A stretch of DNA of 38,959 nt from Comamonadaceae bacterium (GTDB lineage: Bacteria; Pseudomonadota; Gammaproteobacteria; Burkholderiales; Burkholderiaceae_C). This document shows, in pieces, positions 1 to 9,599 of this stretch (positions are counted from its first letter, which is position 1; the number at the start of each line of letters is the position of its first letter). The notes under the pieces are model-generated. The model saw only the letters and a list, made by a program, of their open reading frames with translations. It was not told the DNA's origin and made no database searches. The position numbers and the translations under genes were made by a program. The stretch lies in the NCBI GenBank assembly GCA_008080595.1, contig VIKI01000009.1, positions 1 to 38,959 of the forward strand, in the 5' to 3' direction.

Positions 1-1440
1 TAAACCATTTTGTCGTCTTTTTTCTTGTCCGGCGGCGGCAGTTGCAGGGTCACGGCCACGCCAGGTTTGTTGGGAATGAGCTTGCTGATGCCGTCGCAAA
101 AGGTGTAGCTCATGTCCAGCACCCGGCCCACATCGCGTATCGCCGCGCGGGCTGCCATGGTGCCGAAGGTGGCAATCTGGCTGACCGCATCTTTGCCGTA
201 TTTTTCTTTCACATAGTCAATCACCCGGTCGCGGTTGCCCTGGCAAAAGTCAATATCAAAGTCGGGCATGGAGACCCGCTCGGGGTTCAAAAACCGCTCG
301 AACAGCAGGTTGTATTGCAGCGGATCCAGGTCGGTGATTTTGAGCGCATAGGCCACCAGTGAACCAGCCCCGGAGCCGCGTCCCGGCCCGACCGGGCAGC
401 CATTGTTCTTGGCCCAGTTGATGAAGTCACCCACGATCAGGAAGTAGCCCGGAAAACCCATTTTCAGAATGGTGGTGAGCTCAAACTCCAGCCGCTCCAC
501 GTAGCGCGGCATCTCGGCCTCACGCTTGGCTGCATCGGGGTACAGATGCGCCATACGTTCCTTCAGGCCCTCGTGTGAGGCGTAACGAAAGTACTCGTTG
601 GCCTCCATCACCACGCCGTTCACGGGGGGGATCGGAAAGTCCGGCAATTGCGGCTTGCCCAGCACCAGGCTCAGGTTGCAGCGCTTGGCAATCTCCACGC
701 TGTTGGCCAGGGCAGAGGGCAGATCGGCAAACAAGGCCTGCATCTCGGCACTGGTCTTGAAATACTGGTCACGAGTGAAGCGGCGTACCCGGCGCGGGTT
801 GGCCAGCATTTCGCCCTCGGCAATACAGACGCGGGCTTCATGCGCTTCAAAATCTTCTGGAGCCAGAAATTGAATCGGGTGTGTGGCCACCACCGGCAGT
901 TGCATACGCTGGGCCAATTGCACAGCGACCGGCACGCTGCAACTCCAGGTAAAACCGGTGGGGGAACACGCCTGCCAGTTGCAAGGCGGCATCCAGCGCC
1001 CGCGCTTCATCACCTTGCAGCAGGGCTTGCCCGACCGGCCCGGCCTGTGCACCGGAAAGGCAAATCAGCCCCGTATTGAGCTCAGTCAACCAGGCCAGAG
1101 TCACACTGGCCTGGGCCTTGTTGGCGTTTTGTGTCCAGGCCCGGGCCAACAGTTCAGACAAATTCAGGTAGCCTTGCTTGTTTTGCACCAACAGCAGCAC
1201 ACGGGAGAGTTGCCCCAACTCTTTGCCCAAACCTTCGAGCCAGACTTCCGCCCCCATCAGGGGTTTGACCCCGCGCTTGCGCCCTTCTTTGTAGAACTTG
1301 ATGGCCCCAAAAAGGTTGCTCAAATCAGAAATGGCCAGTGCAGGTTGATCATCTGCCGCTGCCGCTTTGACCACCTCATCGATGCGGGTGGTACCGTCAA
1401 TGACGGAAAATTCGGTATGCAAACGTAGGTGGACGAACAT
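1..1440 (-). pseudogene. dnaE: DNA polymerase III alpha subunit, 5' part, with internal lesion
   Basis: This is the N-terminal part of the replicative polymerase DnaE; the rest lies beyond the left edge. From the ATG at 1440 the protein begins MFVHLRLHTEFSVIDG, the PHP-domain start of proteobacterial DnaE. A TTG three codons upstream is possible but less likely. The reading frame breaks near 923-925. Upstream it reads ...FYLELQRAGR, and downstream a different frame continues VQLAQRMQLPVVATHP, then PGRGSGAGSLVAY (about 350-400) and PDFDIDF (near 250), the polymerase-core motifs. Compared with E. coli DnaE, about ten residues between these two parts are missing, so roughly 29 bases appear lost. 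Because dnaE is essential, an assembly or sequence error is quite possible; otherwise this would be a dead copy. The type field records only that the frame is broken here. Identification is very secure. Confidence 0.9.
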
Positions 1441-1535
1441 GGGCTTCAAGTATGATGATCACAATGGTCAAACATCTCCCAAGGAAGAGTTGACCATCAA
1501 ATGTTGGATTGTAAGAAGACACCAAGGAAGCCATC

Positions 1536-2191
1536 TTGAAGATTCTCGTGGTTGATGATCATGCACTGGTACGCGAAGGTCTGTGCCAAGTACTCAAGGG
1601 ATTGAATCCCGATGAGCCAACCGACGTATTACTGGCCTCCAATTGCGCCGAAGCCTTTGAACTGGCAAAAACCCACCCCGATCTGGACATGGTGCTGCTG
1701 GACTACCATCTGCCGATATGAATGGCTTGGCGGCCTTGACCATTTTTGGCAAAGAACACCCTGAGTTGCCCGTGGTGATTTTGTCGGGCTCGGCCAATCC
1801 CAGCATCATGCAACAGGCGCTGGCACAAGGTGCCGCCGGATTCATCACCAAATCAGGTTTAAGTGAGGAGCTTCTGCTTGCCCTGAGAAAAGTTCTGCGG
1901 GGAGAAATCTACGAGCCCAACAGTTTCTCGGCATTTCATGATCATGCTCCCCTGTCCGAACAACCGAATCAGGGGCGGACTCCGGTTTTCAGCCCTCGCC
2001 AGCTTGAGGTTTTGCAGTTGCTGCTGGACGGCTTCACCAACCGTGAGATTGCCAACAGGCTGTTTGTGGGTGAAGAGACCATCAAAACCCATGTCACGAA
2101 CATCATGCGGGCCTTCAATGCCAAAACCCGCACCCAAGCCGCCACCGAGGCGGCCCGATGGGGTTACCGCAAGTCTTCATCAATGAGCTGA
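1536..2191 (+). pseudogene. NarL/FixJ-type response regulator, single-base frameshift
   Basis: This is a two-component response regulator with an N-terminal receiver and a C-terminal LuxR-type helix-turn-helix. The first frame (1536-1721, TTG start with AAGGAAG at 1524-1530) encodes a receiver with the DD acidic pair at residues 7-8 and phospho-acceptor D56 in LLDYHLP. It then hits TGA. The second frame (from about 1718 to 2191) continues MNGLAALTIFG with the rest of the receiver and the HTH (FSPRQLEVLQLLLDG, ETIKTHVTNIM). Adding one G to 'CTGCCGATATG' would give the canonical LPDMNG, so one base appears missing near 1714-1717. The gene converges on, and overlaps by 28 bp, the hybrid kinase gene on the other strand, which is its likely partner. 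Its regulon is unknown. It could be functional if the indel is a sequence error. Confidence 0.85.
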
Positions 2192-4119
2192 TGGCTGAGT
2201 AAGCGGCGCAACAGGCTACGCAGTTTGGCTGGGCGCACCGGCTTGTGCAACAACGTCAAGCCAGCTGCTTGAGCCGCTGACATCAGGGCCGCATCGGTAT
2301 CACCGCTCATCAAACAGGCCGGAATGTCCGAGTCCAAAATGCGGCGTAATTGCTGCACCACTTCAATGCCATTTTGTTCATCCAGCAAGCGGTAGTCACT
2401 CAAAATGAGTGCTGGTTTCAGGCCGTTTTCTATCCATTGCTGTGCATCGTGCATGCCTCTCGCATCATGGACTTTGATGCCCCAACCCTCCAACAAACAA
2501 ACCAGGGCAGTGCGCACCAGGGGATCATCCTCAATCACCAGCATGACGACTCCGGCCAAACCATCTCCTTGGGGTCGTTCAAACGCCAAGGTGTCGAGGT
2601 ATTTTTGCTTTGGCTGCGCCAATGGCAAGATTAAGGTAAAGCGTGTTCCTCGGCCGGTTCGGGAGTCCAACACCATCGGGTGGCCCAACAATTCGGAGGT
2701 GCGTTTCACAATACTCAAGCCTAAACCCAGGCCCTTGTTACGCTCACGCCCCTTGTTCCCCACCTGAAAAAACTCTTTGAACACTTCACTCTGGTGCTCC
2801 GCAGCAATGCCGATGCCACTGTCCCATACCTGGAGTTGGACTTTTTTCCCGTCATCCATTGGCCTGCAGGCCACGAGCACCCCACCCTGTTCGGTATAGC
2901 GCAAAGCATTGCTCACCAGATTGAGCAGAATGCGGTACAGCAACACAGCATCACTCGTCACCCACACCGAGCTGGGTCGAATGCGCAAACGCAGGCCTTT
3001 TTCCTGAGCGGTTTGCCCAAGGTCTGTTTGCAACTGTGTCAGCAAACCCGACATGGCCAGTGACTCCAACTTGACCTGAACCGCCTGTGCCTCAAGCCGT
3101 GAAATATCCAGCAATCCATCCAGCAAATTCTGCATGGCCCGCACAGAAGACTCCAGATTGACAATCAATCCTCGCGTCTGTTCGTCATGTGGCAGTTGAG
3201 CCAATCGGGTAATGAACATGCCCAAGGCATGGGTAGGTTGCCGCAAATCATGGCTGGCCGCCGCTAAAAACCGCGATTTGGCCTGGGTGGCGTGCTCGGC
3301 TTCTTCTTTTTTCACACGCAAGGCCTGCGTGGCAACAGCCACTTGTTGCTCCAGATCTTCACGTGCGTGCCCGAGTCGCTCTGCCATTTGACGCAGGTTT
3401 TCTTGCAATTCCCGCAGAGGATCACCTTGCGCAACGGCTTCATTTCGAACCTCGGCCGCAGCTGCAAAATCCCCGCGCCCAATTCGCTCGATCAAATGGG
3501 TCATGCGCAGAATCGGTCGAATCACACCCTGACTCAATTTTGCCGCCAGCACCATACCAAAAATGAGCCCCAACAAACTGATGAAACTCCCCAGAATCAG
3601 CATGTTCTGCTTGCTCACGTCGACCGATTGGCGTGAAATTTTTACCACCACCAATCCCAATTGAGTTGGTAAACCATCTGCTTGAGAAGCTGCTTCTTCA
3701 TACAAATCATCCAGTTTGATGCCACTGGCAAAAACTGGCTGCGAAAGAATATCCAAGCGTCTTCGCGCATCAAAAACCTGGGTTTCCTGAGCGCCAAACG
3801 CCTTCACTATTTCAACGCCATCCTCCCCGGCACTGGCCAATAACTGCCCATTTGCGCCATAGACAGCCGCAGACCTCACATCAGGTTCTCTCAAGGCCCC
3901 ATGAACCACCGTTTGCAATTGCGTTTGGTTGGCAGAAAACAAACCATATTCACTGGCAAGTGCAACTTGACGAACGACCGAACGGGTACGTTGCTGATAG
4001 GCCTCTTGGATGTCGTCAAATCTTGCCATCAAAAAAACAACCGCCAGCAGCACACTGACCATAACCACAGGCAACAGTGCCGCCAACAACATGCGCTCAC
4101 GAATATCAAGGCGTCTCAT
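2164..4119 (-). CDS. Membrane hybrid sensor histidine kinase (HAMP-HisKA-HATPase-receiver)
   Basis: This 651-residue inner-membrane hybrid kinase has transmembrane segments at about 12-32 and 174-194. They enclose a roughly 140-residue periplasmic sensor region resembling CHASE8-type domains (SVVRQVALASEYGLFS). A HAMP linker and coiled coil follow (about 195-285). The phospho-acceptor is H290 in the H-box ASHDLRQP. The ATPase domain has the N box LVSNALRY (401-408), VWDSGIGI and GLGLGLSIV. The C-terminal receiver (about 524-645) has E530/D531/D532, phospho-acceptor D575 and the KP lysine near 628. The start overlaps the stop of the upstream binding-protein gene by 4 bp (ATGA), so translation is probably coupled. 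The binding protein may therefore present a ligand to the sensor region. The convergent response regulator is the probable output. The signal is unknown. Confidence 0.92.
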   Translation of the reverse strand: MRRLDIRERMLLAALLPVVMVSVLLAVVFLMARFDDIQEAYQQRTRSVVRQVALASEYGLFSANQTQLQTVVHGALREPDVRSAAVYGANGQLLASAGEDGVEIVKAFGAQETQVFDARRRLDILSQPVFASGIKLDDLYEEAASQADGLPTQLGLVVVKISRQSVDVSKQNMLILGSFISLLGLIFGMVLAAKLSQGVIRPILRMTHLIERIGRGDFAAAAEVRNEAVAQGDPLRELQENLRQMAERLGHAREDLEQQVAVATQALRVKKEEAEHATQAKSRFLAAASHDLRQPTHALGMFITRLAQLPHDEQTRGLIVNLESSVRAMQNLLDGLLDISRLEAQAVQVKLESLAMSGLLTQLQTDLGQTAQEKGLRLRIRPSSVWVTSDAVLLYRILLNLVSNALRYTEQGGVLVACRPMDDGKKVQLQVWDSGIGIAAEHQSEVFKEFFQVGNKGRERNKGLGLGLSIVKRTSELLGHPMVLDSRTGRGTRFTLILPLAQPKQKYLDTLAFERPQGDGLAGVVMLVIEDDPLVRTALVCLLEGWGIKVHDARGMHDAQQWIENGLKPALILSDYRLLDEQNGIEVVQQLRRILDSDIPACLMSGDTDAALMSAAQAAGLTLLHKPVRPAKLRSLLRRLLSHQLIDEDLR

Positions 4120-5069
4120 GGTAAATGCTCCAAACGACGCAAAGTCGAGCGCAGGGCTTTGCCATCCAAAGAAAGATTGAATGCCCTACCCACATGGGCA
4201 TTGACACTGACCTCAAAATCATTCGATTCAACTGGCTTCTCAGGCAAGGATTTACCATTCAAAACATCTTGCACCAAACCTGCGGCCTGTCTGCCAACTT
4301 GTTCAGGCGTTGTATGTAGCGCCAATAAAGCGCCAGCACGTACATAAGCTGGCGAAAATGCCACAACAGGCACCTTGGCTCGAAAAGTGGTGAGCAAAAT
4401 ATTCTGGATGGTGTTGCTGTTAAAGACGACAGGATCAGCCAAAGCCAAAAAAACATCGCTGTCATTCAAGACCTGCTGCAAGTCAGGAAATACTCTGTGA
4501 GACTCCTCCAACCCTGCTTCAGTCAAAGTCAAATCCATAGGATCCATCAATGCCCTTAAAGTGGGAGCCATTGACCAAGAATCAGCCCCCCATAACACAC
4601 CTATACGTCTGGCTTGTGGCATGGCCAGGCGGATCAGAGCCAATTGACGCGCAAGTGATTGATCCAGATAAATCGCCGTCAGCCCAGAAGATGGCTTGCG
4701 TCCACCACTGCGCAATACACGCTCAAAACTGCTGCGTGGAATCAGTGCTGCCAAAATTGGTGAGGAAACCCGAACAGCCACTAAGGTTTCAGTGGCCCGA
4801 GTGCCAAGCGTTACATAAACCGCAGCCTTCGTCATCTGGTCAGCCTGGGCTTGCCATTCAGAAACGTTCAAACGTCGAATATCGTATGAAGAAATGCCGT
4901 TTCGTCCAAGTTCAGCAATAAGAGTTTGAGCGGCTTCCATATAGGCTGCAGTATTGTCACTGCTGACAATGATGACACGTGGCATCACCATTGATGGCTG
5001 TGCGGTCGCACTCAATCCCGCCAGAGACAAGCCCAGCGCAACCAAGAGAAACCGCCAAACAAAAGCCAT
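4116..5069 (-). CDS. Periplasmic ABC-type substrate-binding protein without a transporter
   Basis: This 317-residue secreted protein has a signal peptide at about 1-23 (hydrophobic core FLLVALGLSLAGLSA, then AQP). The mature part looks like the TrpX/pfam04392 family of periplasmic binding proteins, with two alternating alpha/beta lobes (PRVIIVSSDNTAAYMEAAQ, ARRIGVLWG, VPVVAFSPAYVRAGALLAL). No permease or ATPase gene is nearby. It lies 9 bp downstream of the TonB-receptor gene and overlaps the hybrid-kinase start by 4 bp, so the three are almost certainly one operon. This placement suggests a sensing role, with a ligand passed from receptor to binding protein to kinase, rather than import. That role is inferred, and the ligand cannot be read from the sequence. 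Confidence 0.82.
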   Translation of the reverse strand: MAFVWRFLLVALGLSLAGLSATAQPSMVMPRVIIVSSDNTAAYMEAAQTLIAELGRNGISSYDIRRLNVSEWQAQADQMTKAAVYVTLGTRATETLVAVRVSSPILAALIPRSSFERVLRSGGRKPSSGLTAIYLDQSLARQLALIRLAMPQARRIGVLWGADSWSMAPTLRALMDPMDLTLTEAGLEESHRVFPDLQQVLNDSDVFLALADPVVFNSNTIQNILLTTFRAKVPVVAFSPAYVRAGALLALHTTPEQVGRQAAGLVQDVLNGKSLPEKPVESNDFEVSVNAHVGRAFNLSLDGKALRSTLRRLEHLP

Positions 5070-5078
5070 CCTATGTGC

Positions 5079-7049
5079 CTAGTATTCCAACCGCAATGTC
5101 AAAAAAGCACGCCGCTCGAACATGAAAGTCCGATCAAAATCCGGGTATGGAACACCCATATTTTGGATCACCAAAGCCAATTCACCACGCTTGCTTCCCC
5201 ATTGCAAAGCCTTGCTCAAACGTAAATCCGTGCGGGTTAGCGCCTGCTTATCGCGGGTTGAGCCCTGCAATGACACAGTGCCAATGTCTTGATGAGTCAG
5301 GGTAAGCTCAATACCACCAGGGAATTTTTGTGTAAAAAAGAGCGTACTGGTCAGATCAGGAACCGCAAAAGCCGTGTTGGGATCTACAGCAGGATTGGCA
5401 GGATTCAAAAATGAAATATGCGCATAAGCCTGGTTGAAACCAAGCTGTGCACCTTTCCATAGATGAGATTTGAATTGGTATTCAAATCCACGAATAGCTA
5501 AATCATCACTGTTGAAGTAATCCCATGGATTTGACGGCAACAGGGAAGTACCGGCTGGCAACGCATATTGCTTCCGCCTGACAAATCCGCTGATCTGCTC
5601 CTGGAATGCCCGTACATCCAGAGTTGCACCCCATTTGGGAAACTCACTTAAAAGTCCGATCTCGCGCACAGACACACTTTCTGGCGCAATGTTCCCGCGT
5701 GCAAGTGTGTTCACCTGGAGCAATCTACCTTTGTAGCTGTAGCGAATATCAGCGTATTTTTCGAGTGAACTTGGCGGCCTGTAGGCACGTGCCAATCCCG
5801 CACGCATGGTGTGCCCCGGCAACAGATGCCAATTCAGCATCAAACGTGGGGCCAAGGTCGCTCCACTGTCTGAACTGTGCTCAGCCATCACACCGGCATT
5901 CAACAAGAAAGCGGGTGTGATGCGCCATTCGGCGTTGGTAAATAAGCGCTTGAAATCCGTGACCAGGGCCGCACTGGTGTTGTATACCGGTAACGAAGTG
6001 ATCTGCTCACGCCGCCATTCACCGCCCCAGACCACACGCAGACCTGTGCCAGAACGAAATGTATGTTGCAGGGTGATCGAATCATTCTGGGTAGAGCCAC
6101 TCACATCCAGGTTGAAGCTATCGTTGATCCCCAGTGACAGCAATGAGTAAGGCGCTGTGTCACGGTAGCGTTCCTGGGTATGCGCCAGAGTCAACGCCAG
6201 ATCTTCATCCACACCCAAAGTGCGGCGCAAGTCCATTTGTGCAAAGCTCGACTCATAAAAACGGTCATGCGCCGGGTTGCCCACAACGCCTGCAAACCCT
6301 CGCCCCGAGTCGATATCCATGGTACCGACCCTGAGTTGCACATCATCCTCGGAAGAAGCCGCCCAGTCTGAGCGGAAATTCACCCGTCGGACAAAGTTGT
6401 GACCATAAGCACCTGTCAGTCCGTCATCAGCCCGGGTATCCATGCTCAACCGGTAGCTGGCCTTGTCACTTGACCACCCCATGGCTGCCTGAGCATCACG
6501 AACACCGTTCTCACCACCCGTTAATTTGGCTTGTACGCCCAAGGTATCTGCGGTGTGTCGAGTCACGATATTGACCACACCCAACATGGCCCGTGCACCA
6601 TAGGCTGCCGAATTTGATCCTCGCAACACTTCAATTCGCTCAATATCCTCCATCGCCACCGACATCAAACCAGAAGCCACACTGCCGAAAAAATAAGTTG
6701 AGTACACTGACCGCCCATCCACCAGCACCTGAATTCGGGCCGAGTAATTCCCGAATCCTCCGTGGTAACTGGCTTGGGGTGCATCAGGCTCAAATGAAGT
6801 ACTGGATCGAAAACCTGGCACAAGCCGCAACAAGTCAGCCACATCGCGTGCACCACTGCGACGGATAAAGTCGCGATCCAGCACAGTCACGGCACCAGGG
6901 GTCTCATCAAGTCGCTGAGGCAGGCGTGACACAGACAACACAATGGGCATCTCATCAAGGTAATCTCGCTCAGAAATGGCTTCTCCAGCCCTGGCAAAAG
7001 TCACATTCAAGCCGATGACCCATAAAAAAATTAATGTGAATCGGTACAT
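5079..7049 (-). CDS. TonB-dependent outer-membrane receptor
   Basis: This 656-residue protein has a signal peptide (residues 1 to about 21, ending FARA). The plug domain is at about 45-165, with characteristic stretches ETPGAVTVLDRDFIRRSGARDV... and VLVDGRSVY and IERIEVLRGSNSAAYGARAMLGVVNI. A long beta-barrel follows, ending in the aromatic C-terminal strand LTLRLEY expected for outer-membrane insertion. It is the first gene of a three-gene minus-strand operon with a substrate-binding protein and a hybrid kinase. The plug resembles the 'TonB receptor plug' of BtuB/colicin-receptor-like proteins, but the substrate cannot be predicted. I see no separate N-terminal signalling (STN) domain, so signalling through an anti-sigma factor is unlikely. 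The downstream kinase is the likelier signalling route. Confidence 0.93.
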   Translation of the reverse strand: MYRFTLIFLWVIGLNVTFARAGEAISERDYLDEMPIVLSVSRLPQRLDETPGAVTVLDRDFIRRSGARDVADLLRLVPGFRSSTSFEPDAPQASYHGGFGNYSARIQVLVDGRSVYSTYFFGSVASGLMSVAMEDIERIEVLRGSNSAAYGARAMLGVVNIVTRHTADTLGVQAKLTGGENGVRDAQAAMGWSSDKASYRLSMDTRADDGLTGAYGHNFVRRVNFRSDWAASSEDDVQLRVGTMDIDSGRGFAGVVGNPAHDRFYESSFAQMDLRRTLGVDEDLALTLAHTQERYRDTAPYSLLSLGINDSFNLDVSGSTQNDSITLQHTFRSGTGLRVVWGGEWRREQITSLPVYNTSAALVTDFKRLFTNAEWRITPAFLLNAGVMAEHSSDSGATLAPRLMLNWHLLPGHTMRAGLARAYRPPSSLEKYADIRYSYKGRLLQVNTLARGNIAPESVSVREIGLLSEFPKWGATLDVRAFQEQISGFVRRKQYALPAGTSLLPSNPWDYFNSDDLAIRGFEYQFKSHLWKGAQLGFNQAYAHISFLNPANPAVDPNTAFAVPDLTSTLFFTQKFPGGIELTLTHQDIGTVSLQGSTRDKQALTRTDLRLSKALQWGSKRGELALVIQNMGVPYPDFDRTFMFERRAFLTLRLEY

Positions 7050-7242
7050 AAGAAAATAAACAGATTAAACAATGGCCCCCTACCGCAATTTTGCATTGTG
7101 CGTTGATGCATTTTTGCCTCTTACTGATGGGGCTGCCACTGAAAGAAGAAATTTAATTTTTCGACAAGGTTGACAGTGACGCGCCGATAATGACACAGCT
7201 CAGTCGACTAGGAAGCCCCAACCATTACCCCAGGAGAACACC
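7050..7242. promoter_or_regulatory. Divergent intergenic region, TonB operon / small-peptide gene
   Basis: This AT-rich 193-bp gap separates the minus-strand receptor operon from the plus-strand small gene and must hold both promoters. On the plus strand TTGACA (7170-7175) and GATAAT (7186-7191) are visible, but they are only 10 bp apart and so cannot form one standard sigma-70 pair. TCGACA (7161-7166) with GATAAT has a 19-bp spacer and is a weak alternative. I see no strong operator. Confidence 0.35.
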
Positions 7243-7389
7243 ATGGCAAAAGGTCAACAAAACAACAAAATGGTCAAAAAACCCAAAAAAGACACCACTC
7301 CCCCCAAACCTGTTTCATCAGACGCTGTTCGTCCAACCATCACCACGGTCGTCCCTGTGCGCGGCAAGCTCAAAAACGCATCCCACTGA
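7243..7389 (+). CDS. Small basic peptide of the MAKGQ type (48 aa)
   Basis: A short gene encodes a 48-residue lysine- and proline-rich protein starting MAKGQQNNKMVKKPKK and ending at TGA 7387-7389. A Shine-Dalgarno GGAGA sits 7 bp before the ATG. Peptides beginning MAKGQ...KKPKK recur as small conserved hypotheticals in proteobacteria. This recognition is from memory of the family, not from a search. The N-terminal half is strongly basic, and the second half is polar with TTVVPVRGK. There is no signal peptide or membrane segment. It precedes the PAS-kinase gene by 69 bp, with an inverted repeat between them. Function is unknown; nucleic-acid or ribosome contact is a guess from charge alone. 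Confidence 0.7.
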   Translation: MAKGQQNNKMVKKPKKDTTPPKPVSSDAVRPTITTVVPVRGKLKNASH

Positions 7390-7391
7390 TC

Positions 7392-7444
7392 CACAGTGGG
7401 GTGTTGCCCGCTATAAACCGTCAAGCATGCAACACCCCACAGTG
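7392..7444. repeat. Inverted repeat, possible terminator or attenuator hairpin
   Basis: Two 16-base arms, 7392-7407 and 7429-7444, are complementary at 15 of 16 positions (12 contiguous: GTGGGGTGTTGC against GCAACACCCCAC) around a 21-base loop. It sits just after the small-peptide stop codon and just before the PAS-kinase start. No T-run follows on either strand, so it is not a classical intrinsic terminator. It may stabilise the 3' end or reduce read-through. Confidence 0.6.
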
Positions 7445-7458
7445 ACATTGGCTGCGGC

Positions 7459-9599
7459 ATGGCCCGCATGAATCGACCTATTCCCCGCCCTCTGCGAAAA
7501 CCCTCCAAGCTCAAACCCAAACGACTGGGTGGGCCTGGCCGTGTTTCTCCAAGCTTGCCAGACAAGTTCTCGAACGCTCGTCTGGTAGACAACCTGAGGC
7601 AATATCAGGCAGAACTTGAAATACAAAACAAGGCACTGCGTTTCAGCCAAGCTGAAGCAGAAGGTGCGTCCGAACGCTTTGTCACCCTGTTTTCCCATGT
7701 GCCACTGGCTTTGATGGTGGTTGAAGAATCCGGTTTGATCCTGGAAACCAATGGCCGCTCCCTTGATTTGTTTCGCCCCCTTGAGAGTGATCCTCCGCTA
7801 ACTTTTTTGTACCCGCTGGTCAATCCATCCGGACTTGATCGCGTACGCCTGTGCTTTTTTCTGGCCAAGGAGCAAGGGGCGTATGAAATCGATGAGGTTG
7901 AGTTTTCAGGGGGGTCAAATGGCGCATTTACCGGTGACATCCATGTCGCCAGAATTGTTCACGCCGAAGATGAACCGCCGCGTTTCATTTGCGCCATCAT
8001 TGACCAAGGGCCTTTGCTGGCGCAACGCCATGCATTACAGCGCAGTACACAGGCCTTGCAAGAACGCAATGATCAACTGGTTCAAAGCAAAACGCGCTTG
8101 GCCGCCATCATCAACTCGTCACTAGATGCCATTTTGTGCGTGGACAAAAACCACCACATCATGGTGTTTAACCCCACAGCAGCCACGGTGTTTCAGTGTG
8201 CAACAGAAGATGCCTTGGGTCGCCCACTCACTGATTTCTTGCCCGATGCCGAACGTGCCCTGAATAACAGCAACCTCACCAACCATGCCCAACTGGGTGA
8301 AATGACCGGATTGACCCGCCAAGGCAAAAAAGTCCCACTGGAAGTTAGTCTGTCATTTGAGCACCATCCAGATGGTGATGTGATGACTTTTTTTGCCCAC
8401 GATCTGACCGCACGCAAAAAAATGGAAGCACATCGCAATGCCCTGGAGTCGCAGTTGCGAGAATCCCAAAAAATGCAGGCCATTGGCACCATGGCTGGCG
8501 GTATAGCACATGACTTCAACAACATCATCAGTGCCATTCTGGGCAATGTCGCCTTGGCCAAAATGGACACGGCCCCAGAAAGTGCGGCAGCCACCAGTCT
8601 TGACGAAATTGACAAGGCCGTGCACGTGACCTGGTGCGCCAAATCCTGCCCTTCAGCCGCAACGACCCGCCCCGGCGCACCCCCCTGCAATTGGCGAGCA
8701 TCGTCCATGAAGCACTTCGACTGGTCAAAGTCACGCTGCCACCACACGTCAGTTTGCAAGCCCATATCAGTGACACAGCACCACTGGTGATGGCAGATGC
8801 CACTCAAATTGAGCAGGCTTTGCTCAATTTGTGCAACAACGCCATCCACGCCATGGCTGATCACGCAGGCATTTTGAAAGTTGAACTCAGCTACACCACA
8901 CGCACGCCTGAGGATCAACACGAGCGGCGCAGTGGGCTCCGAGGACAGCACGTCAAACTCAGCGTCAGCGACACCGGTTGTGGCATGAGTGAAGCCACCC
9001 AGGAACGTATTTTTGAACCCTTTTTCACCACCAAACCAGTAGGTCAGGGGACGGGTCTGGGACTGTCGGTAGTCCACGGCATCATGCGCTCCCACATGGG
9101 CAGCATCAAGGTTCAAAGCTCACTCGGCCAAGGAAGCACATTCAATCTGTACTTCCCGGTGACTGATGCGGAAATCGAGCGAGCGCCCACCGCATCCATC
9201 GAAAAACTTCCCGACATGGGTGTGGGGCAGTCGGTGATGGTAGTGGATGACGATGAAGCGCTAGTGTTTTTGCTCAAACGCCTGCTCACCCGCAAAGGCT
9301 ATCGAGTCATCACATTTACCGATCCGCTGCAGGCGCTGACGCAATTGCGCGACCCGGCATTCACCTGCAACCTGCTGGTCACCGACTACAACATGCCGGG
9401 TTACAGCGGTGTCGATTTATTGCGCGATGTCCAGCAATTGCGACCCCATTTGCCCGTGGCACTGGCCTCGGGTTATGTCACCCCTGACATCGAACGGGAA
9501 GCCATTGCAGCTGGTGCGCGTGCCCTGATCCACAAACCCAACGACGTGGACGAACTTTGCGCCACCGTCCAGAAACTGCTCAGAGAACAAAACGATTGA
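7459..9599 (+). pseudogene. Soluble PAS-PAS hybrid histidine kinase, frameshifted
   Basis: This is a cytoplasmic hybrid kinase with no membrane segments. A basic N terminus (about 1-35) is followed by a PAS-like region (about 70-190), a second PAS domain (about 213-320, IINSSLDAILCVDKNHHIMVF), and the H-box GGIAHDFNN with H351. The frame breaks near 8620-8630. Up to there it reads DKAVH; another frame continues RARDLVRQILPFSR, then the ATPase domain (LLNLCNNAIHAM, DTGCGMS, GTGLGLSVVHGIM) and a C-terminal receiver (VVDDDEALVF, phospho-acceptor in LVTDYNMPG) to TGA 9597-9599. The intact protein would probably read DKAVHRARDLV, which fits a 7-base loss between two GTGCAC copies. The layout is like kinases of the NtrB/'PAS-HisKA-REC' class. 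If the break is real the kinase is dead, because the ATPase domain is cut off. Confidence 0.85.

Follow-up and report, generated by a model that had tools for sequence, protein, structure and literature searches.

A conserved TonB-dependent receptor, PF04392 binding protein and Cache kinase module, a proposed trans-envelope signalling unit

Introduction

Why should a TonB-dependent receptor and a periplasmic substrate-binding protein (SBP) share an operon with a hybrid histidine kinase, if no transporter gene accompanies them? The question is raised by a locus in a stretch of 38,959 nucleotides from a Comamonadaceae bacterium (contig VIKI01000009.1), here called the window. Sensor kinases driven by an SBP are established in LuxP-LuxQ and TorT-TorS, and in the FecA-FecR-FecI system signal transfer across the envelope starts from a TonB-dependent receptor and uses an anti-sigma and a sigma factor. 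The receptor-SBP-kinase module described here is real and widely conserved; its mechanism, a route from receptor via SBP and kinase to a response regulator, is one that we infer from gene identity, order and conservation, from the lack of a TrpX-type permease, from the exchange of outputs and from the existence of PF04392-kinase fusions. With moderate confidence, we regard the module as a trans-envelope signalling unit and not as an importer, the signal running from the receptor to the SBP, the Cache kinase and the regulator; a chemical signal probably crosses both membranes by way of the receptor, the SBP and the membrane kinase.

Gene layout and domain content

The receptor, SBP and kinase genes (Table 1) lie head to tail on the minus strand, with a gap of 9 bp between the first two and an ATGA overlap of 4 bp between the last two, which bears out the tight operon claimed in a preliminary description. 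That description also placed a LuxR-type regulator against the end of the kinase gene. Its position and family hold, the gene being convergent on the plus strand and overlapping 28 bp of the kinase 3' end; it does not form a single open frame, however, and the receiver and GerE domains (Pfam) are found in two pieces. The break is probably an assembly error rather than the mark of a dead gene, since two neighbours within window positions 3-9596, dnaE and a PAS hybrid kinase, are frame-broken as well, and all three genes are intact in a genome of the same genus (G121). Identity between the window and this genome is 96-99% for dnaE, 84-87% for the regulator, 83% for the kinase, 64% for the SBP and 53% for the receptor; the input side thus diverges fastest, as would be expected if the ligand differs between relatives.

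Table 1. Positions of the genes and features of the locus within the window
Feature	Position	Strand	Basis or remark
TonB-dependent receptor, 656 aa	5079..7049	-	Pfam Plug and barrel
TonB-box-like stretch MPIVLSVSR, receptor residues 34-42	6924..6950	-	identity as TonB box is our reading
PF04392 periplasmic binding protein (SBP), 317 aa	4116..5069	-	predicted two-lobed class I SBP fold
ATGA overlap of SBP stop and kinase start	4116..4119	-	
Hybrid histidine kinase, 651 aa	2164..4119	-	Pfam, NCBIfam
Periplasmic sCache_4 domain, kinase residues 32-170	3610..4026	-	Pfam
EYGLFSAN, kinase residues 57-64	3928..3951	-	conservation higher in sensors with a linked SBP than in those without
Asp138, sensor loop of low model confidence	3706..3708	-	Asp/Glu mostly in SBP-linked sensors
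HisKA and HATPase core, NahK/ErcS-like	2617..3282	-	Pfam; NF041832
Kinase receiver domain	2209..2541	-	Pfam
LuxR/NarL-type response regulator	1536..2191	+	Pfam; frame broken near 1715-1721

The kinase carries a periplasmic sCache_4 domain (52.7 bits, cut-off 22.1), the only match to this family in its own genome, followed by HisKA, HATPase and receiver domains (Pfam); a HAMP match of 23.3 bits stays under the cut-off of 25, and no Hpt domain was matched in Pfam. Neither the NahK/ErcS family NF041832 (342.9 bits, cut-off 400) nor the BarA/GacS family NF008318 (232.3 bits, cut-off 890) is reached. An intact relative of the regulator is nearest to ErdR, albeit far under the ErdR cut-off, and the GacA/UvrY-type family (cut-off 280 bits) is reached neither by the second piece of the regulator (31.9 bits) nor by intact relatives (60.4, 87.7 and 82.2 bits).

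In the receptor, Pfam recognises the Plug and barrel only and no N-terminal signalling domain. Its best NCBIfam match is the TOL_0244/OmpS family NF053590, at 159.3 bits far below the cut-off of 645; all 37 receptors scanned match this family, and 29 of the 37 aligned carry the pattern P[VIL]3[ST][AV][ST]R in their N-terminal segment. For OmpS, an essential part in the detection of alkanes is described (PMC6304351, after Wang and Shao 2014; also PMC5174103). At 159 bits against 645, the window receptor gives no ground for deriving a ligand from this alkane-linked family, and we rejected the idea.

Conservation of the locus

Three sets of related loci were compared. At E <= 1e-10, the SBP is matched in 66 of the 299 genomes of the family, own genome included, and the 29 close loci in genomes other than the own one were all taken as the family set (L046-L074). 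The best 80 of 105 relatives form the named set (L086-L165), mainly from Rhodoferax, other Comamonadaceae and unclassified assemblies; eight loci are common to both. In a class sample of 369 genomes, an SBP profile at E <= 1e-15 matched in 76, again including the own genome, and 60 of the 81 other SBP matches were taken as class loci (L196-L255).

The preliminary description had staked its reading on conserved linkage in other genomes, and this is found: the receptor precedes the SBP in 29/29 family loci and in 80/80 named loci, eight of them shared, an arrangement far beyond chance. A sensor follows in 28 of the 29 family loci (the exception, L070, stops at a contig edge), with a kinase output in 12 and GGDEF in 16. 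In the named set (best 80 of 105), the Cache sensor lies downstream in every locus, and the output is a kinase core in 76, GGDEF in one and neither in three, two of which (L121, L126) lie near contig ends and one (L154) does not. Class loci (60 of 81) are more varied: the sensor is present in 58, a kinase core lies downstream in 52 and GGDEF in four; a receptor gene precedes the SBP in 47, lies elsewhere nearby in two and was not recognised in 11, among which the upstream sequence of L221 and L237 is limited to 1.5 and 2.2 kb. At L229 and L230, receptor and SBP are present and no sensor was found. With start codons chosen to come as close as possible to a 4-bp overlap, an in-frame start allowing such an SBP-kinase overlap exists in 80/80 named (best 80 of 105), 26/28 family and 35/56 class loci. 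The convergent regulator is found in 64 of the 80 named loci (best 80 of 105); in 10 of the 16 without it, the contig runs on for no more than 2.1 kb past the SBP, and no regulator was found at L047 or its named twin L141. The earlier reading therefore has to be widened in three respects: the output is a kinase or a GGDEF protein, the receptor is not always recognised, and the input is common to BarA/GacS-type kinases.

Some loci deviate in their composition. Two tandem receptors are seen in L056 (8859-13135), and a second kinase core lies upstream of the receptor in L121 and L124. When the SBP-linked loci were searched for genes sharing one open frame, neither SBP and sensor nor SBP and kinase did so in any of them; receptor and SBP share a single frame in L059 (3-2951) and in L153, either a possible receptor-SBP fusion or a sequencing artefact.

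The own genome holds further receptor-SBP-kinase sets at L013 (C117) and L015 (C32), one of them with an SBP-like domain fused to the kinase. A receptor gene adjoins this fusion as well; its PF04392 match (22.6 bits) is under the cut-off of 25.9, and 45 of its 120 listed homologues carry PF04392 and HisKA on one chain. A fourth PF04392 match in this genome (C38, 24.7 bits, likewise under the cut-off) lies in a region where nothing matched a receptor, a sensor or a kinase.

The binding protein and the question of a transporter

The SBP belongs to the ABC_sub_bind family (PF04392, 70.8 bits, cut-off 25.9), and its model shows a complete two-lobed class I fold resembling amino-acid-bound relatives, which suggests ligand binding; structural matches include the binding proteins of two SBP-driven kinases, 2hj9 (LuxP-LuxQ) and 5xsd (XylFII-LytS). 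Source annotations name some relatives as tryptophan/tyrosine ABC transporter components, and if these names were followed, the SBP would be an orphan part of such an ordinary transporter. Family membership and structural matches to Tyr-, Phe- and Trp-binding proteins (available text of PMC6816091) agree with this, but the score against the TrpX family NF041285 is 48.4 bits with a cut-off of 390, no permease was found in the loci and genomes given below, and at the two positions named for side-chain preference the SBP has, in our reading of the alignment, Ser239 and Pro255, where the known proteins have Glu/Ala and Tyr/Gln. We consider this explanation very improbable.

A one-sequence profile detected no permease in the 29 family, the 80 named (best 80 of 105) or the 60 class loci. 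A matching permease encoded elsewhere would have spoken against the preliminary description; the search for a TrpX-type permease found none in 13 genomes carrying the kinase form, namely the own genome (89% complete) and 12 others, one being 58% complete, while such a permease was recovered in 3/3 control genomes, one of which supplied the query. These counts, which cover carriers of the TrpX type only, also bear on a second explanation, a nutrient uptake operon in which receptor and SBP import a substrate via some inner-membrane carrier and the kinase merely regulates their supply. TonB-dependent receptors normally import, which favours uptake, as does the precedent of an SBP active in both transport and signalling (BctC with BctE; accessible part of PMC9602780); against the permease counts, we judge the explanation to be distinctly unlikely.

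Among more distant family matches, 11 of 41 were examined: a receptor is present in five and a permease in six, never both. In a quick tree of 122 SBPs, a branch of SH-aLRT 100 separates the six permease-linked proteins from the other 116, with many of the remaining branches weakly supported. The family GGDEF-type SBPs form one group (99) beside a kinase-type group (96), and the GGDEF-linked L164 falls inside the latter, which argues that different outputs, hybrid kinase and diguanylate cyclase, have replaced one another behind an input that stayed the same.

Sensor signature and the link to BarA/GacS-type kinases

Sensors from 60 distinct SBP-linked loci were compared with 12 unlinked ones, leaving out repeats and the truncated L324; of the unlinked sensors, L311-L313 look like near kin. 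Glu at position 57 is found in 53/60 linked against 5/12 unlinked sensors (Fisher 0.0011), Tyr or Phe at 58 in 58/60 against 5/12 (1.7e-5) and Asp or Glu at 138 in 50/60 against 1/12 (1.2e-6), all three tests ignoring kinship; Asn or Asp at 64 occurs in 58/60 against 6/12, and Gly at 63, where the window kinase has Ala, in 46/60 against 3/12. These residues are candidates, and no more, for a docking face of the SBP. In the model, confidence is low for the loop that holds position 138; a flexible major loop lines the proposed pocket of GacS in the available text of PMC5595915.

Kinases beside the SBP in class loci (60 of 81) are mostly of about 900 aa. The BarA family NF008318 matches all 33 kinases chosen for scanning, the window kinase included. 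Only one of them exceeds the cut-off of 890 bits, at 921 bits; it comes from L218, a locus whose SBP has an identical counterpart under the name Candidatus Berkiella cookevillensis. Seven further kinases score 487 to 814 bits, below the cut-off, for which reason 'BarA/GacS-type' is our own wording. Seen from the kinase side, there are 67 listed BarA-type matches with a sensor end, from 65 genomes; in 40 of them the SBP gene lies no more than 800 bp away on the same strand, upstream in 38. Four of the listed matches exceed the curated cut-off, and the SBP adjoins two of these. Among 28 matches without a sensor end, the SBP lies within 800 bp in one (G488) and, allowing for a missing start, at 828 bp in G312. 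The SBP beside BarA/GacS-type kinases is widespread but optional, since 25 of the 65 genomes lack such an SBP at the threshold used and the strongest match (G436, 1183 bits) is among the 27/67 that it does not adjoin; the remaining two of the 27, in G597 and G429, are second copies. In the receptor-less loci L224, L226, L227 and L247, neighbours judged by eye from ORF starts resemble pdxJ, acpS, cysM and rlmD, which we take to be the surroundings of gacS and barA.

E. coli BarA has been proposed to bind protonated acetate (PMC8639471), the ligand of GacS is called unknown (PMC7695008), and no consensus on the GacS signal is noted in 2026 (PMC13390462), each in the accessible portion of the source. 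The module described here possibly has a bearing on the question of the GacS signal. As a tentative proposal, to which we give somewhat less than an even chance, the PF04392 SBP, in most cases accompanied by a TonB-dependent receptor of its own, would present the signal to a large branch of BarA/GacS-type and related kinases and to Cache-GGDEF cyclases. There would then be a widespread and perhaps ancestral form of GacS-type signalling, in which the ligand enters through the outer membrane and an SBP hands it to the Cache domain, while E. coli-type and other SBP-less kinases would sense differently.

Proposed mechanism and relation to known systems

In the signalling route that we favour, the receptor, probably drawing its power from TonB, would recognise a ligand at the outer membrane or admit it, and the two-lobed SBP would bind this ligand in the periplasm. 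The loaded SBP would then dock on the Cache domain of the kinase and alter its activity, and phosphate from the kinase, perhaps via its receiver domain, would reach the convergent regulator and change transcription.

Stimulation of membrane receptors by SBPs is described as general, with about 10 characterised sensor-kinase cases, in the available part of PMC9602780. The window, with an SBP gene coupled to that of a kinase with periplasmic sensor and no transporter found, has the gene arrangement of SBP-driven kinases; it resembles LuxP-LuxQ, TorT-TorS, XylFII-LytS and BctC-BctE (the last in the accessible text of PMC9602780) in the proposed control of a membrane kinase by a binding protein, and differs in the SBP family, in the Cache sensor and in the outer-membrane receptor encoded in the same operon. 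With the BarA/GacS kinases the window kinase has the sCache_4 sensor family in common, and an adjoining SBP as in the 40/67 listed matches, but it is short, has no Hpt domain found and combines a NahK/ErcS-like core with an ErdR-like regulator. As in FecA-FecR-FecI, a TonB-dependent receptor would pass on the envelope signal, but no N-terminal signalling domain was found in the window receptor, and kinase and regulator stand in place of anti-sigma and sigma factor.

A further parallel concerns the sign of the effect. YfiN is a membrane cyclase held off by YfiR. The YfiBNR system, as far as its available descriptions go, likewise combines an outer-membrane part (YfiB), a periplasmic mediator (YfiR) and a membrane transducer (the cyclase YfiN), whereas the window has a TonB-dependent receptor instead of the lipoprotein and an SBP instead of YfiR. 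By analogy, the SBP could be an inhibitor holding the sensor off until receptor or ligand removes it, presentation of a small molecule not being the point. A parallel layout exists, namely TOL_0244-family receptor, YfiR/HmsC-like protein and CHASE8-HAMP transducer, but the model of our SBP keeps the full two-lobed class I fold, which suggests ligand binding, and we regard the inhibitor role as unlikely.

Receptors over the TOL_0244 cut-off were found in 14 of 369 genomes. Series of TOL_0244-family receptor, short protein and membrane transducer were seen at L289, L291, L294, L299, L300, L301 and L305; in 6/6 tested, the short protein is YfiR/HmsC-like, with PF13689, and the transducers after it have CHASE8-HAMP in 3/3 tested, with kinase, GGDEF or GGDEF-EAL output. 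The 20 regions with strong TOL_0244 matches include several with a YfiR/HmsC-like protein and a single one with an SBP match instead; a combination of receptor, periplasmic mediator and membrane transducer thus recurs with a different mediator. The single exception, L297, is mixed in its arrangement: its TOL_0244-family receptor exceeds the cut-off, and an SBP of the window family (95 bits) comes next.

Two further lines of evidence were rejected. Mirror-tree partial correlations over 65 loci (receptor-SBP 0.44, SBP-sensor 0.37, sensor-kinase 0.52, kinase-regulator 0.40) would fit a chain, but with the neighbour genes moaA (25 loci), dnaE (37) and hppA (19) as controls, unexpected pairs were equally strong (moaA-SBP 0.53; receptor-regulator 0.56 and 0.65), and the correlations were therefore set aside. 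A ligand was likewise not deduced from neighbour genes, no single neighbour being conserved: of 91 loci (L046-L057, L086-L163, L165; a genome may recur), 35 have moaA in divergent orientation to the receptor and 33 have dnaE following, while mobA and moeA occur in 30 and 25, the gene names being taken from ORF starts.

Implications

SBP-driven kinases as such are already known; to the extent of our literature search, the new elements are the receptor-coupled form with a PF04392 SBP and the link between this SBP and BarA/GacS kinases. No report of either was found among the papers listed, a weak absence given that subscription journals were thinly covered.

If true, the proposed route would describe a modular path from receptor to kinase or from receptor to cyclase, and if the SBP is a signalling protein, the source names calling some of its relatives transport proteins would need correction. 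Should many BarA/GacS relatives receive their signal from a dedicated binding protein, the ligand could be obtained by purifying that protein, which would render the question of the GacS signal directly testable.
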